DNA of 64,000 nucleotides from Devosia submarina (GTDB lineage: Bacteria > Pseudomonadota > Alphaproteobacteria > Rhizobiales > Devosiaceae): contig NZ_PYWB01000001.1 in the NCBI RefSeq assembly GCF_003056345.1, forward strand, positions 496,001-560,000. Reading direction: 5' to 3'. The number at the start of each line of letters is the position of its first letter. Position 1 is the stretch's first letter. The notes beneath the pieces are model-generated. The model saw nothing but the letters and a program-made list of their open reading frames with translations. It was not told where the DNA came from and did not search any database. Made by a program: the position numbers and the translations under genes. Of the stretch, positions 2,316 through 41,862 are shown in pieces.

Positions 2316-4838
2316 ATGTCCCCCAATACTTCCTATTCCGCCCTCGACCTCGCGGGCTCCTTCCGCCTGACTTCCCCCACAAAGTCCGACATCGACCTGC
2401 CGATCACCCTGCCGGGAGACGTGCATCAGGCCCTGCTGCAGGCCGACCGCATCCCCAATCCCTATTTCGGCGAAAATGAAAAGACGGTGATGTGGGTCAA
2501 CGAAACCGCCTGGTCGGTCGAACGCAGCTTCACCGCCTCCGCCGCCCATATCGATGGCTATCTCACCCTCACCTTGGCCGAAGTCGACTGCATCGCCACC
2601 ATCCTGCTCAATGGCGAAGTGGTCGCCAAAACCGACAACAGCTTCATCCGCAACGACATCGACGTTACCGGCAAGGTCCGCGAGGGCGACAACACGCTGC
2701 GCATCGAGTTCGACATCGCCCCTGATGTGGCCAAGGCGCGCGCCGACGCGCACCCTTTCCCCATTCCCTTCACCAAGAACTACCAGACCAATGGCCTGAA
2801 GGGCATCCACATGAACTTCATCCGCAAGGCCGCCTGCCATGCGGGCTGGGACTGGGGCATCTGCCTCATGCCCATCGGCGTCTACGGCACCATGACCTTG
2901 CGCAAGTCGCGCCTCGCCCGCCAGGAGAGCGTCCAGGTCGACCAGGTTCACGCCAACAACTCCGTGGAACTGTCGATCAAGACTCGACTTTTCGCCTTCG
3001 CTCACGGTCAAGTGGAACTTGAACACACCATCGACGGGCAGACGGTCACCGACAAGCTCGTGGTGCAAAAGGGCGAAAACGTCTTCACCCACAACGTCAC
3101 CATCCACAATCCCAAGCTCTGGTGGCCCGCAGGGCAGGGCGAGCAGCCGCTCTACGAACTCGTGACCAACCTCGATGGCGAAAAGACCACCCGCCAGATT
3201 GGCCTGCGCAAGCTCGAATGGATCGTGGAAAAGGACGAGATCGACCACAGTTTCAAGTGCCGCATCAATGGCCGCGACATCACCATGATGGGCGCCAACT
3301 GGATCCCCGCCGACGCCATTCCGTCGCGGATTACGCCTGCGGTCATCCGGGACCTGCTGGAAAGCGCCAAGGGCGCCAACATGAACATGCTCCGCATCTG
3401 GGGCGGCGGGCAGTATGAGCCCGACTATTTCTATGAGCTCTGCGACGAGCTCGGCATCCTCATCTGGCACGATTTCATGTTCGCCTGCATGAGCTACCCG
3501 TCGGACCGGCCGTTCCTCGAAAGCGTGCGCACCGAGATCACCCAGCAGGTCCGCCGCCTCTCGCACCACGCCTGTATTGCCCTCTGGTGCGGCGACAACG
3601 AGGTCATCGGCTCCCTCAGCTGGTACCCCGAGACCAAGGCCGATCCCGGCCGCTACATCGCCAATTACGACCGCCTCAATTCCATGCTTGGCAACATCGT
3701 GGAAGACGAAGACCCCGTCCGCCGCTTCTGGCCGTCCTCGCCGTCCCTGGGCTATCTCGACTTCTCCGACGGCTGGCATTCCGACACCCGCGGCGACCTC
3801 CATTATTGGGACGTCTGGCACTCCGCCAAGGCCTTTGAAGCCTACCGCACGGTGCATCCGCGCTTTGCCTCCGAGTTCGGCTTCCAGTCCTTCACCTCGA
3901 TGAACGTTATCGAGACCTTTGCCGAAGAAAAGGACCGCAACCCGTCCTCGCCGGTCATGGAAATGCACCAGCGCAATGATGGCGGCAATGCGCGCATCCT
4001 TGAAACCATGACGCGCTACTTCCGTTTCCCCAGCAATTTCGACCAGATGGTGTTCCTGAGCCAGATCCAGCAGGGCCTGGCGATGAAGACCGCCATCGAA
4101 TACTGGCGCTCCACCAAGCCGCGCTGCATGGGCACGCTGTTCTGGCAGATCAACGACATCTGGCCGGTGGCTTCATGGTCGAGCCTTGATTATGGCGGGC
4201 AGTGGAAGCTGCTCCAATACATGGCCAAGCGCTTTTTCCTGCCCGTCAACGTCGTTGCCGTCCCGGTGAAGTCCGAGGTCCGCACCAATTCGCGTGGGCT
4301 CCCTGTCCAGGGCGATCTGCCCGACACCATCGTGCTCAAGGGCATCAACGACACGGCCGGCCCGGTCTCGATCAGCCTTGAAGTGCGCGCCGTCAAAGTC
4401 GGCGGTGGCGACCGCGTGGTCTTCTCCGGCAATTCAGCCATCGGCCCCGATGCCGCGATTGTCGTCACCGAAGTGCCCATGGAAGAGCTTGAAGCCGACG
4501 AATTCCTTTTCTTCTCCTGGCGCGATGCCGAGGGTATACTGCTCGGCGAGAACGACTTCTTCCCCAAGGCCTACAAGGCCTACGAAATCGTCCCGACAGA
4601 GGTCAGAGGGAATTGGTCCGATCGCGATGGTCAGGCCGTCCTGACGCTCGAGTCGGACAAACCGGCCTTGTTCACCACGGCCACGGTGGACATTCCGGGC
4701 TACTTCTCCGACAACGCCGTGACGCTCCTGCCGGGCCGCAAGACCGAACTGGTCTTCACCCCCCGCCATGGACGCTCGGTAACCTCGGGCGAACTGGATC
4801 CTTCGCTCAAAATCCGCAATCTCAGCGAGACATTCTAA
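2316..4838 (+). CDS. Beta-mannosidase, glycoside hydrolase family 2
   Basis: 840 aa, the normal length for GH2 beta-mannosidases, which remove terminal beta-D-mannose from manno-oligosaccharides and glycoproteins. The N-terminal sugar-binding sandwich, the Ig-like middle domain and the TIM barrel can be followed in order. The acid/base motif WCGDNE lies near residue 427 and the nucleophile region ASEFGFQSF near 516; both glutamates are present. No signal peptide is visible, so the enzyme probably acts in the cytoplasm on imported oligosaccharides. It starts with ATG after a gap with a LacI-like operator. The nearby FGGY kinase and the distant AGE isomerase fit sugar catabolism, but no dedicated transporter lies beside it. 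Confidence 0.92.
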   Translation: MSPNTSYSALDLAGSFRLTSPTKSDIDLPITLPGDVHQALLQADRIPNPYFGENEKTVMWVNETAWSVERSFTASAAHIDGYLTLTLAEVDCIATILLNGEVVAKTDNSFIRNDIDVTGKVREGDNTLRIEFDIAPDVAKARADAHPFPIPFTKNYQTNGLKGIHMNFIRKAACHAGWDWGICLMPIGVYGTMTLRKSRLARQESVQVDQVHANNSVELSIKTRLFAFAHGQVELEHTIDGQTVTDKLVVQKGENVFTHNVTIHNPKLWWPAGQGEQPLYELVTNLDGEKTTRQIGLRKLEWIVEKDEIDHSFKCRINGRDITMMGANWIPADAIPSRITPAVIRDLLESAKGANMNMLRIWGGGQYEPDYFYELCDELGILIWHDFMFACMSYPSDRPFLESVRTEITQQVRRLSHHACIALWCGDNEVIGSLSWYPETKADPGRYIANYDRLNSMLGNIVEDEDPVRRFWPSSPSLGYLDFSDGWHSDTRGDLHYWDVWHSAKAFEAYRTVHPRFASEFGFQSFTSMNVIETFAEEKDRNPSSPVMEMHQRNDGGNARILETMTRYFRFPSNFDQMVFLSQIQQGLAMKTAIEYWRSTKPRCMGTLFWQINDIWPVASWSSLDYGGQWKLLQYMAKRFFLPVNVVAVPVKSEVRTNSRGLPVQGDLPDTIVLKGINDTAGPVSISLEVRAVKVGGGDRVVFSGNSAIGPDAAIVVTEVPMEELEADEFLFFSWRDAEGILLGENDFFPKAYKAYEIVPTEVRGNWSDRDGQAVLTLESDKPALFTTATVDIPGYFSDNAVTLLPGRKTELVFTPRHGRSVTSGELDPSLKIRNLSETF

Positions 4839-36420: not shown

Positions 36421-38505
36421 GTGGGCCATCCTCCGGAGGACGAACTGGCCGATACCGTTCCGAAACAACCTCTTGCTCTGACGCTTGGAGCAGCGGCTGT
36501 AACCCTTGTCGTGATTATTGGTGTGCTTGCTGGCCCATCCGTCGTCTACTGCTTCAATGCCGAAGGCGGCATGGGACAATGCCTGCGTGGGCAGATGGTC
36601 CAGTCTGGCCTCCTCCGCCAGCCCGAGATAGCCGCAGTAGACCCTGCACCCACCAGCCAGCCTCTTGCCGCTCCCGCAACATCGGAACCGGAAACGGGCA
36701 TCGCTGAACCAGCGCTGGATGCCACCCCGCCTGCCACCCCCGATAGCGACAGCGTTGTCGCCGCAACTTTTGGCCTCCTGCGCGCTGAACCCGATGGCTC
36801 CGTCGTTATCGCGGGCAGCGGCACGCCGGGCTCCGAGGTGGAAGTTTTTGCTAATGACGACCTGCTGGGAACGGCAATGGTCGAACCTAATGGCGATTGG
36901 GTCTTTGTTCCCGCCACCCCACTCAGGCCTGGCGAACTCGAGATTACCTTGGGCGAGGCCGGTAAGCCTGGCCGCGCGGCTGAATCCATTGTCGTTGCCA
37001 TCAATGAAGACCGGACCAGCCAGCCCCTAGTAGTTGCCAGCAAACCCGGCGCCCCCAGCGAAATCCTCCAGGGCCCCGAAGAAGACACCCAGATCGCCTC
37101 GGCCGAGCCTGCACCCGCAGCTGCGCCTGCTGCGGCACCCGCCGCCCCAAGCCCGGCTCCCGATGCCGAGCCCGAACCCGCCGTCGCCACAGCGCCCGAG
37201 CCAGTCGAGCCGCCTGCGACCCAAGCGCTGGCTACGCCAGATGTAAGCGCGGATCCGCAGAACACCCCGCCTGCTCCTCAGCCCGAAGCTCCTGTCGAGC
37301 CAGAAGTAGCGGAACCAGCACCCTCAGAGGCTTCACAGCCCCCTGAAGCAAGCGTAGCCAGCGCCGATCCTGCACCTGAAACCCCAGCGCCCGCCACGCA
37401 TTCGCTTGGCAGCACCCCGCCCACCATCGACGCTGTCGAGATCGAAGGCGATCGGACATTCTTTGCCGGCGCTGGTCCCGAAGGCGCCGACATCCGGCTC
37501 TATGTGGATGACCAGTTCATCGCCGACGCCGAGGTGTCCGGCGGACGTTGGCTCGTGGAAGCCGGCCCCGTCCTTGACCAGCCCAGCCAGCGCGTCCGCA
37601 TCGACATGCTCCAGCCGGGCACGGCCGATGTCGCTGCGCGCGCAGAGGTCAACTTCGTGGTGGAATTACCCGCCGAAGAACCGGTCGCTATCGCTCAGGC
37701 CGACGCCCCTGCGCCAGCATCAACGCCCGCACCATCCACCGAAGCTCCAGCTGCTCCCGCAGCCGAGCCCCAGGCTCCACTGCCGGCGGAGTCCGTTGAC
37801 CCAGCGCAACAGCCCGCTGCAGCACCTCCATCTGCCCCGATCCAGCAGCAGACCCCACAGCCAAGTGCCCCCGCTGCCCAGTCAGCCGCACCAGCCGAGC
37901 CAGCCGCACCAGCCGAGCAAACCGCTAGAGCAACCGAAGCCGCTACGCCTCAGCCCCAGGCTCCCCAGCCAAGCGCCCCCGCGCCTCAGCCGGCTGAACC
38001 TGCCGCAGTTTCATCTGCTCCTGCAGTGGCAGAACAGCCAGCTACTGCTCCTGCCGTGCCACAACAGCCAGCTGCGCCGCCAGAGCCTCCGGCGGAAGCA
38101 GCTAACACGGTTGAGCCCGCGCCGGCAGCCCAACCCGAAGCCGAGCCCGTGGCTGCAGCGAGCGCCCCGCCAGCAGCCGAACCGAGCCAGACTGCGGAGA
38201 CCCCAGCTGCAAGCGCGTCTGCCGAACCCATCTCCGAGCCCACCCCTCCGGACAATCCAGCCTCGGCTGACGCTGAGATCCCCACCATGGTGGCCGTGTC
38301 AGTGGGCGGCCCGGATGCGGAACGCTTTGCCGCCGGCAAGGCTATCATCCGGCGCGGCGACAACCTCTGGACCATTGCGCGCCGCGTCTATGGCCAGGGC
38401 GTCAAATACACCACCATCTACGAGGCAAACACCGGCCAGATCCGCGATCCCAACCGGATCTACCCGGGCCAGGTCTTTGCCCTGCCGGAAGATGCGGCAA
38501 ACTGA
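36421..38505 (+). CDS. Membrane-anchored LysM protein with Ig-like and Pro/Ala-rich regions
   Basis: 694 aa. An N-terminal membrane anchor (about residues 17-42) leads to a Pro/Ala-rich stretch, a bacterial Ig-like domain (~117-190), a second, related Ig-like domain (~335-425), a long low-complexity linker of Pro, Ala and Gln (~425-630), and a C-terminal LysM domain (~641-693, IRRGDNLWTIARRVYG). LysM binds peptidoglycan, so it probably spans the periplasm and ties the inner membrane to the wall. The start is a GTG at 36421; no in-frame ATG precedes the anchor. It follows citramalate synthase after 9 bases. Confidence 0.85.
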   Translation: MGHPPEDELADTVPKQPLALTLGAAAVTLVVIIGVLAGPSVVYCFNAEGGMGQCLRGQMVQSGLLRQPEIAAVDPAPTSQPLAAPATSEPETGIAEPALDATPPATPDSDSVVAATFGLLRAEPDGSVVIAGSGTPGSEVEVFANDDLLGTAMVEPNGDWVFVPATPLRPGELEITLGEAGKPGRAAESIVVAINEDRTSQPLVVASKPGAPSEILQGPEEDTQIASAEPAPAAAPAAAPAAPSPAPDAEPEPAVATAPEPVEPPATQALATPDVSADPQNTPPAPQPEAPVEPEVAEPAPSEASQPPEASVASADPAPETPAPATHSLGSTPPTIDAVEIEGDRTFFAGAGPEGADIRLYVDDQFIADAEVSGGRWLVEAGPVLDQPSQRVRIDMLQPGTADVAARAEVNFVVELPAEEPVAIAQADAPAPASTPAPSTEAPAAPAAEPQAPLPAESVDPAQQPAAAPPSAPIQQQTPQPSAPAAQSAAPAEPAAPAEQTARATEAATPQPQAPQPSAPAPQPAEPAAVSSAPAVAEQPATAPAVPQQPAAPPEPPAEAANTVEPAPAAQPEAEPVAAASAPPAAEPSQTAETPAASASAEPISEPTPPDNPASADAEIPTMVAVSVGGPDAERFAAGKAIIRRGDNLWTIARRVYGQGVKYTTIYEANTGQIRDPNRIYPGQVFALPEDAAN

Positions 38506-40819: not shown

Positions 40820-41338
40820 TCAGGCAGCCAGGACCATTTCGCTCTGAATGGCTGCCATGACGCTGGGTTGATTATGCCCGAGCAGCTGAAATGCGCTGTT
40901 GGTCGTGCCGTGCTGCATGGCGCTGACCACTTCCAGCACATGGACGCTCAAGAGTGGCCCGCGTACCCCGCGCTGTCGCAGGGCTGCGAGACCTTGCAGC
41001 ACGGCCTGGCCCGAAGGAGCGGCATCATAGATTCCGGCAGGGTGGGGCAGGGGCGGCACATTCTGCTCCGAAAGGACAATCTGCTCAGCTCCCACGCCAG
41101 CTGCATTCAGGGCCTTGTGGTGGACATCACGCAAAGCCCTGCGGAAATCCGCTCCGCTGATGCCGAGCTTGCTGAACACTCGCTTCGCCGATCCGTCCGA
41201 AAGGTCCAACGCCGCCAGCACGAAGTGCTCCGCTCCAGGCCGTCCCTGATGTTGCTCATGGGCGGCCGCCTCTGCTCGCTCGCAAAGCGTCTTGATCGTA
41301 CCCATATCGGCAAAGCGCTGCTTAAGCTTGTTGAACAT
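40820..41338 (-). CDS. Stand-alone Clp N-terminal domain protein
   Basis: 172 aa with two Clp-N repeats (about residues 15-75 and 105-165) and no AAA+ ATPase part. In ClpA/ClpC this domain binds substrates and adaptors, so this protein may present substrates to a Clp ATPase or act as a stress-linked adaptor. The ATG at 41338 sits behind GAGGG, ten bases after the stop of the small HTH gene, so the two are one operon. Convergent with the exporter gene, six bases away. Confidence 0.82.
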   Translation of the reverse strand: MFNKLKQRFADMGTIKTLCERAEAAAHEQHQGRPGAEHFVLAALDLSDGSAKRVFSKLGISGADFRRALRDVHHKALNAAGVGAEQIVLSEQNVPPLPHPAGIYDAAPSGQAVLQGLAALRQRGVRGPLLSVHVLEVVSAMQHGTTNSAFQLLGHNQPSVMAAIQSEMVLAA

Positions 41339-41348
41339 CTTATGTCCC

Positions 41349-41564
41349 TCAGATCTTGGTTGTGGGATCGATGCTCGACAACCGCTTGTGCGCAGCTTGC
41401 TTGCTGACGCCAAGCGCCTGGGCAATACGCGCCCAGGACCATCCCTGCGCCAGCGCGTCACGCACGGCTTTGCGTTCCAGCCGATTAGCCATTAGGCGCA
41501 GGGCAACGACCTGCGCAAAGCTGGCGTCTGGGTCATCATCGCGATTGTGGTCAGCATCATCCAT
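41349..41564 (-). CDS. Small helix-turn-helix DNA-binding protein
   Basis: 71 aa. An acidic N-terminus is followed by a helix and a homeodomain-like HTH, GWSWARIAQALGVSKQAAHK. It is the first gene of the HTH/Clp-N pair. Two inverted repeats overlap its promoter region, so it is likely an autoregulator. Similar small HTH genes stand next to Clp-N genes in actinobacteria, as I recall from those genomes; no function is established. Confidence 0.78.
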   Translation of the reverse strand: MDDADHNRDDDPDASFAQVVALRLMANRLERKAVRDALAQGWSWARIAQALGVSKQAAHKRLSSIDPTTKI

Positions 41565-41565
41565 G

Positions 41566-41610
41566 CGTCAACCATAGTTGACGCTCGCCCTGTTGTCAAC
41601 CTTTATTGAC
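41566..41610. promoter_or_regulatory. Tandem inverted repeats upstream of the HTH/Clp-N operon
   Basis: Site one, CGTCAAC-CATA-GTTGACG (41566-41583), is a perfect inverted repeat right next to the start codon at 41564, covering the ribosome site. Site two, GTCAAC-CTTT-ATTGAC (41595-41610), has the same layout with one mismatch. Centres are 28 bases apart. Two like sites at one promoter strongly suggest a dimeric repressor, most simply the HTH protein itself. Confidence 0.65.
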
Positions 41611-41633: not shown

Positions 41634-41795
41634 TTAGAGGCGAGAAGAAGGCCGTGTCAGCGCCCGGAAATGTTCTGGAGACAGCACCACTCCCACATCA
41701 GCGCCGTCCTTTTGGATGCGCACCGGCTCCCGGGCAGCGTCCTTCAGCAGGGCTTCGAATTGCGTATCGAGATCCTTGACTTTCTTGACCGGCAT
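41634..41795 (-). CDS. Orphan Phd/YefM-like antitoxin
   Basis: 53 aa from the ATG at 41795, which has AAGGGA as ribosome site. The core PVRIQKDGADVGVVLSPEHF matches the Phd/YefM antitoxin fold (beta strands and helix that bind DNA and toxin). No toxin gene lies on either side, so it is either an orphan or serves as a plain regulator. Confidence 0.6.
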   Translation of the reverse strand: MPVKKVKDLDTQFEALLKDAAREPVRIQKDGADVGVVLSPEHFRALTRPSSRL

Positions 41796-41836
41796 GAAGC
41801 TATTCCCTTGTTGGATGCCCATCCGAAGTACAACGG

Positions 41837-41862
41837 AAAAGGCCCGCATCGCTGCGGGCCTT
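41837..41862 (-). terminator. Intrinsic terminator after the RND operon
   Basis: AAGGCCCGCA-TCGC-TGCGGGCCTT, a perfect 10-bp stem, is followed on the minus strand by TTTTCC. It lies just after the permease stop at 41880. Confidence 0.75.

Follow-up and report, generated by a model that had tools for sequence, protein, structure and literature searches.

The N-terminal domain of the Clp chaperone ClpC1 is the docking site for adaptors, substrates and drugs, and the target of cyclomarin, rufomycin, ecumicin and lassomycin. ClpT1 and ClpT2, which are subunits of the chloroplast Clp core, are not known to have a helix-turn-helix (HTH) partner. The closest described relative of the locus considered here is ClpC2 (Rv2667 and its relatives in mycobacteria and other actinobacteria), a single chain comprising an HTH and a Clp_N domain that serves as autorepressor and as sponge for cyclomarin (PMC10030653). 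That paper describes ClpC2 from actinobacteria, where it weakens the effect of an antibiotic that targets Clp, and its cyclomarin-specific induction is confirmed by a paper of 2026 (PMC12913811). Its operator, CGTCAAC-n5-GTTGACG, lies 1-2 nt before the start codon, is often repeated and extends over the -35 and -10 elements, and a leaderless transcript has been proposed (PMC10030653). Taylor et al. 2023 assign DNA binding to the Clp_N domain of ClpC2 (R185/R189; PMC10030653); an HTH region resembling RelI has been recognised in the same protein (PMC13284704).

A split, ClpC2-type gene pair in Devosia

The window (that is, the whole 64,000-nucleotide stretch of Devosia submarina DNA that was analysed) contains a split, ClpC2-type module on its minus strand (Table 1). 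It is read in the order distal palindrome, proximal palindrome, GC, HTH gene, 10-nt gap, Clp_N gene, and the palindromes follow the pattern GTCAAC-N4-GTTGAC in two copies 28 bp apart. An earlier note on this DNA had placed the HTH reading frame, the Clp_N gene and both palindromes correctly. Its remark that the function of such a pair is undescribed is half right, in that ClpC2 has the same two domains, a nearly identical operator and a published function (PMC10030653). No two-gene proteobacterial form was found in the literature searched, which excluded most subscription journals and all bioRxiv preprints.

Table 1. Positions of the module's genes and of predicted regulatory features in the window
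Feature	Position	Strand	Remarks
HTH protein gene, 71-aa	41349..41564	-	proposed autorepressor; predicted recognition helix at residues 55-65
Stand-alone Clp_N gene, 172-aa	40820..41338	-	double repeat, without AAA+ module; ATG at 41338
Proximal operator (putative), GTCAACTATGGTTGAC	41567..41582	-	exact palindrome; 2 nt (GC) ahead of HTH ATG
Distal operator (putative), GTCAATAAAGGTTGAC	41595..41610	-	one mismatch; 28 bp upstream of proximal operator
-35 box TTGACA (predicted)	41594..41599	-	3' half of distal operator plus next base
-10 box TATGGT (predicted)	41571..41576	-	spacer plus first bases of 3' half of proximal operator
Predicted transcription start, A of HTH ATG	41564	-	deduced from box positions
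Shine-Dalgarno-like GAGGG of Clp_N gene	41346..41350	-	overlaps HTH stop codon; 7 nt before clpN ATG

The Clp_N protein scores 27.2 bits with Pfam PF02861, for which the cut-off is 20.7; the Pfam HTH matches of the HTH protein are weak and none is at cut-off (the best, HTH_23, has 24.4 against 24.6 bits), and neither protein reaches any NCBIfam cut-off. AlphaFold models of the two have pLDDT values of 81.7 (HTH) and 93.7 (Clp_N, a complete double Clp repeat). The profile of split HTH proteins finds the HTH of the one-chain, ClpC2-like proteins L152, L154, L155, L157 and L158 at E values from 2.5e-8 (L152) to 9.3e-8 (L158), and L158 matches the ClpC2 structures 8ad9 and 8ada at 1.2e-43 and 1.8e-31, respectively. 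Compared with the PDB directly, the HTH profile matches RelI (1.3e-4), the sigma factor 3hug (5.9e-4) and ClpC2 8ada (0.076), and the Clp_N profile matches ClpC (0.0015), ClpB (0.0057) and then the ClpC2 domain 8b9o (0.62). The Clp_N part has no special closeness to ClpC2, because ClpC2 ranks lower both by sequence (in the PDB) and by structure (below ClpC1). A single-sequence PDB search with the HTH protein, which gave an artificial repeat protein (8vd6, 3.8e-5) as best match and then RelI (6.1e-4), was set aside. Searched by structure, the HTH model gave only generic HTH folds (Z up to 5.4) and no assignment to a family; 8ada and 9sdc were not among the matches listed. The PDB holds further ClpC2 structures (9p2p, 9p39 and 9p4h).

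Two other reading frames of the window may be mentioned. A 71-aa frame at 41634-41849 (-) is Phd/YefM antitoxin-like (22.5 bits, under the cut-off of 29.8). It was considered as a third member of the operon and rejected: among the nine copies in the genus, that of the window alone has it directly alongside (L009 and L011 have weaker partial matches at a distance of about 1 kb, and none was found in the other six loci). The second frame, at 36421-38505 (+), encodes a protein of 694 aa that is rich in Pro and Ala and has a LysM domain at its C terminus.

Distribution of the pair and conservation of its operators

The HTH gene is present in 9 of 136 genomes of the family (its own included), the Clp_N gene in the same nine, and the two are adjacent in 9/9. 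All nine carriers belong to the genus of the window, one of 16 genera. None of 384 other genomes of the class has a match at E 1e-10, which may be an undercount because scoring was limited to the best 15 candidates in each genome. The module is accessory, and its sporadic distribution (in the family and in the class) fits an accessory protection gene. In seven of the nine genus members (L005-L011) it adjoins the same ABC transporter gene, and in 16 of the 26 module-free loci examined the transporter is followed within 1.5 kb by an RND permease gene like that of the window; in the other two members (L012 and L013) the module sits elsewhere in the genome.

Scanning a collection of species genomes with the HTH profile yielded 205 relatives, the best 80 of which were analysed. 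These 80 span alpha-, beta- and gamma-proteobacteria and Actinomycetota, and in 79 of them a Clp_N match starts within 158 nt after the HTH match, in a separate frame, as in the window. The two-gene HTH/Clp-N module of the earlier note, its conservation elsewhere and its occurrence in actinobacteria are thus borne out for the best 80 of 205 relatives. The sole exception is L105 (an Acidimicrobiales MAG, 2900-3200), which has the HTH and perfect tandem palindromes without a Clp_N match downstream; from this locus, the HTH/operator cassette may serve other partners. Plasmid pSU1 of Agarilytica (Gammaproteobacteria) also carries a pair, and so do two very large Embleya replicons (Actinomycetota). 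(The Clp_N match is split across two frames at L046 3199-3721 and L060 3086-3712, by assembly error or decay.) With a phage or virus origin in mind, viral contigs yielded only two weak relatives (45 and 49% identity across part of the HTH) and phage records no match; the PADLOC anti-phage models gave no Clp_N match and a single HTH match whose E value, 0.031, carries no weight.

The nature of the partner also bears on the reading of the pair as a toxin-antitoxin system, with the HTH protein as antitoxin, like its relative RelI, and Clp_N as toxin. RelI is the best PDB match of the HTH profile and homologues of RelI have been proposed to derive from ClpC2 (PMC13284704), but the partner in 79 of the best 80 of 205 loci is Clp_N and not a RelE-type toxin, which makes this reading very improbable. 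A RelE/BrnT-type toxin gene is not the neighbour in the window or in those 79 relatives.

The operators are judged by conservation. Within the window there are 4 palindrome sites with up to two mismatches where chance would give 1.3, and 6 of 100 shuffled sequences have as many; such counts are weak evidence for that reason and were set aside as within chance. Tandem palindromes are found in all nine genus members, 28 bp apart (27 in L007). The wider operator set comprises 84 loci (the 80 above, three plasmid loci and the window), or 83 without L064, which lacks upstream DNA. A tandem palindrome at 27-29 bp is present in 80 of the 83, with 0-4 mismatches over 24 fixed positions. (The scan scored 81 of 83 loci at up to 4 mismatches of 24, and L098, with a spacing of 24, is spurious among these; some of the loci repeat genomes of the family scan under a different name, and closely related loci are not independent of one another.) Among 1680 stretches of 180 bp taken at random from the same loci, the best tandem score was 6 mismatches, reached once, so that 0/1680 have the score of the real loci. 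The repeats that the earlier note described are thus a feature of homologous promoters as well. Chance palindromes beside an unrelated gene pair would accord with the unremarkable site count of the window, but both palindromes are kept at nearly the same spacing in those 80 of 83 loci and in two phyla, and this explanation is scarcely credible. Massilia loci L097-L099 have a single palindrome in place of two, a natural single-operator variant. A wider regulon was not seen: the 6 sites with at most one mismatch in the genome include the two of this promoter, and the reversed pattern, used as control, has 2.

The HTH profile has a match in 31 of 35 genomes of the Frankia order. Thirty HTH loci of this order were fetched and 21 kept, nine being dropped as incomplete (among them L158, a one-chain ClpC2) or as HTHs in other long proteins; together with the 84 loci and Catellatospora L120 they form a set of 106. 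For most of the Frankia-order loci the Clp_N partner was found by rule or by eye. It was not found for L145 and L132, and L132 has only a shortened Clp_N-like frame. The one-chain HTH+Clp_N proteins L152, L154, L155 and L157 have tandem GTCAAC-N5-GTTGAC (4/4). Where the HTH gene is separate, all 93 tandem loci have an N4 spacer (9 of the 106 loci are without tandem). Thus N5 goes with one chain and N4 with two genes. Similar HTH domains also occur in the Frankia order inside longer proteins with a C-terminal repeat that we take to be PASTA-like (L150, L151, L153, L156 and L160), where no palindromes were found.

An unrooted tree was made from HTH+Clp_N sequences in 95 rows, without the plasmid loci and without L046, L060 and L105. 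Its five one-chain rows form one starred group, and its 65 proteobacterial rows form another, next to actinobacterial two-gene rows with an A-type HTH. That Actinomycetota hold all forms suggests that the module originated there, although the tree is unrooted. With seven deep or long rows dropped, the test rejects a single clade of Alphaproteobacteria (26 rows against 62; p 2.3e-5), which is in keeping with transfer between classes; the transfer that the earlier note held possible is upheld as movement between lineages. Within the window's genus, the tree counterparts of L012 and L013 (L050 and L055) stand apart from the other members without firm support. Two separate acquisitions by the genus were considered and dropped, a single clade not being rejected (AU test, p 0.378).

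Promoter architecture and the DNA-reading domain

In 88 of the 93 N4 tandem loci the last bases of the distal palindrome are TTGAC. The spacer of the proximal palindrome and the two bases following it read TAnnnT in 75 of 93 (the distal spacer does so in 6 of 93), so that only the proximal palindrome is shaped as a -10 box. Spacings of 27, 28 and 29 between palindromes, found in 4, 71 and 18 of the 93 loci, place the two boxes 16, 17 and 18 bp apart. The best promoter match of the region in the window is TTGACA-17-TATGGT (10 of 12), one of three found where 0.3 are expected. Judged from sequence, the operon mRNA is probably leaderless, since the predicted transcription start falls on the A of the HTH start codon. 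No Shine-Dalgarno sequence was seen before the HTH gene; before clpN, a GGAG- or AGG-type stretch is seen by eye in many of the listed relatives. The earlier note had one repeat covering the ribosome site, but the proximal palindrome is better read as part of the promoter. Its view of the HTH protein as the module's own small autoregulator fares better. The operators lie on the predicted -35 and -10 boxes and are conserved in tandem, and ClpC2 offers a parallel, by analogy with which the HTH protein likely represses its own operon.

Which domain reads the operator may be considered for the whole group, and several features suggest that in ClpC2, too, it is the HTH. The palindromes remain with the HTH where Clp_N is absent (one case, L105). 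The crystal chain of the ClpC2 N-domain, 8ada, stops at residue 72 (..IGKSMGV), inside the HTH, and the segment that follows is the presumed recognition helix (TKQAAQKRF in L158); because the chain ends before this helix, the ClpC2 fold could not show the whole HTH. In the AlphaFold model of the Devosia protein the recognition helix begins with Lys55. With Lys or Arg at HTH position 55, 312 of 320 half sites have G as the outer operator base; with Ala there, 50 of 68 have A, and 14 of the 18 exceptions of the Ala type sit in the half site that doubles as -35 box. One Catellatospora genome has both kinds: L085, with Ala and ATCAAC, and L120, with Arg and GTCAAC. As proof of contact this covariation was downgraded, because the tree needs just one K/R-to-A change; it is a single event and suggestive only. 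The Clp_N domain may strengthen DNA binding.

The Clp_N protein as a candidate guard of Clp N-domains

The earlier note called the Clp_N domain adaptor-like. As modelled, the protein folds like the N-domain of ClpC1 rather than like an adaptor: ClpC1 and other ClpC N-domains are the best structural matches (best Z 15.7, rmsd 2.7, 142 aligned residues, 16% identity), and the values for the stand-alone ClpT1 and ClpT2 (Z 13.8 each), ClpA (Z 12.5), ClpB (Z 12.0) and M. smegmatis ClpC2 (Z 11.0) are lower. The fold shared with ClpT1 and ClpT2 lends something to the possibility that Clp_N is a Clp regulator, which would bind adaptors, substrates or ClpP of its host, in the manner of plant ClpT or as a holdase in heat, and tune ClpAP, the HTH protein setting only the dose. 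Excess ClpC2 slows casein degradation, and ClpC2 mRNA rises about twofold on heat shock (PMC10030653), as such a role would have it. Housekeeping tuning predicts wide conservation, however, and 127 of the 136 genomes of the family lack the module, so that this possibility is unlikely, if worth keeping in mind.

The reading that we hold to be somewhat more probable than its contrary is that of a split ClpC2-type guard, made of a self-repressing HTH protein and of a ligand-sensing, sponging Clp_N protein. By analogy with ClpC2, the HTH protein, probably as one dimer per palindrome, would sit on both boxes (-35 and -10) of the leaderless promoter from which it is itself expressed, and keep the operon nearly silent. 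Clp_N is best read as sensing and soaking up a ligand that is aimed at Clp N-domains: it would be a decoy of a Clp chaperone N-domain, and it probably contacts the HTH protein, because both domains form one chain in ClpC2. A ligand of Clp N-domains (a peptide antibiotic, a protein of phage or competitor, or a flood of unfolded protein) would fill Clp_N and lift repression, and the Clp_N protein that then builds up would titrate this ligand away from ClpA or ClpB.

The genome has three carriers of PF02861, a ClpB, a ClpA (both named by reading their sequences) and Devosia Clp_N; no ClpC was found by this model, which would leave ClpA or ClpB as the target to be guarded. Against the guard reading, the N-domains of these two are less similar to Clp_N than that of ClpC1 is. 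Also counting against it are the PDB rank of ClpC2 for both profiles (after ClpC and ClpB for Clp_N, after a sigma factor for the HTH) and the loss of two cyclomarin contacts and of the ClpC2 dimer salt bridge. Cyclomarin itself is an unlikely ligand of Devosia Clp_N, because Phe80 and Glu89 of ClpC1 are not kept (they align with Ala106 and Gln115 in the profile alignment; the position of F2 is ambiguous, being Phe2 by profile alignment and about Arg8 by structure ranges). The Catellatospora protein of L120 keeps MFERF and IPFTPRSKVVLE, which comprise the three cyclomarin-contact residues, so that the choice of ligand may differ between branches.

A joint function of the two proteins, which gene order and the one-chain ClpC2 imply, could also take the form of a proteolytic switch. 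The HTH repressor would then be a substrate of ClpAP that Clp_N protects or delivers, and the operon would report free Clp capacity; ClgR, the mycobacterial regulator of Clp genes, is a Clp substrate according to the title of PMC5352834. On the other hand, the domains of ClpC2 are joined, and its release from DNA was shown with ligand and not by way of degradation (PMC10030653). We regard a proteolytic switch as improbable.

The guard reading can be extended, tentatively and with doubt outweighing confidence, to a cross-phylum family of two-gene Clp guards. Natural agents would then hit the Clp N-domains of ClpA-using Proteobacteria often enough for a self-derepressing sponge to have been kept and passed among alpha-, beta- and gamma-proteobacteria and Actinomycetota, and the operator reader of the whole ClpC2 group would be the HTH and not the Clp_N domain. 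If the split form holds, it would suggest that Clp-targeting agents, or other attackers of Clp N-domains, exist for Gram-negative bacteria too, and the promoter of the module would be a ready reporter for finding them. With DNA reading and ligand sensing on two different proteins, the way in which a ligand frees ClpC2 from DNA would also become directly testable.

Among known systems, RelI of RelS-RelI (PDB 9sdc) is likewise a short HTH protein related to the same domain, but its partner is a toxin that cleaves 16S rRNA (PMC13284704), whereas that of the Devosia HTH protein is Clp_N. ClpT1 and ClpT2 of Arabidopsis are, like Devosia Clp_N, stand-alone proteins of the Clp_N fold. ClpC1 is a full AAA+ chaperone; Devosia Clp_N is without AAA+ modules and has Ala in place of Phe80. 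ClpC2 differs from the Devosia module in being one chain rather than two genes with separate starts, in its operator spacer (n5 in place of N4, one base apart), in its cyclomarin contacts at Phe80 and Glu89 (ClpC1 numbers) and in a dimer salt bridge, D46-R57, which is not kept in Devosia (R57 aligns by hand with Leu38 of the HTH protein); a further point of difference is that no ClpC was found in the Devosia genome. ClpC2 and the Devosia module are alike in consisting of an HTH-type domain and a full Clp_N double repeat, with no ATPase and in the same order, and in having GTCAAC/GTTGAC palindromes that lie by the start codon, are repeated and overlie the -35 and -10 boxes.
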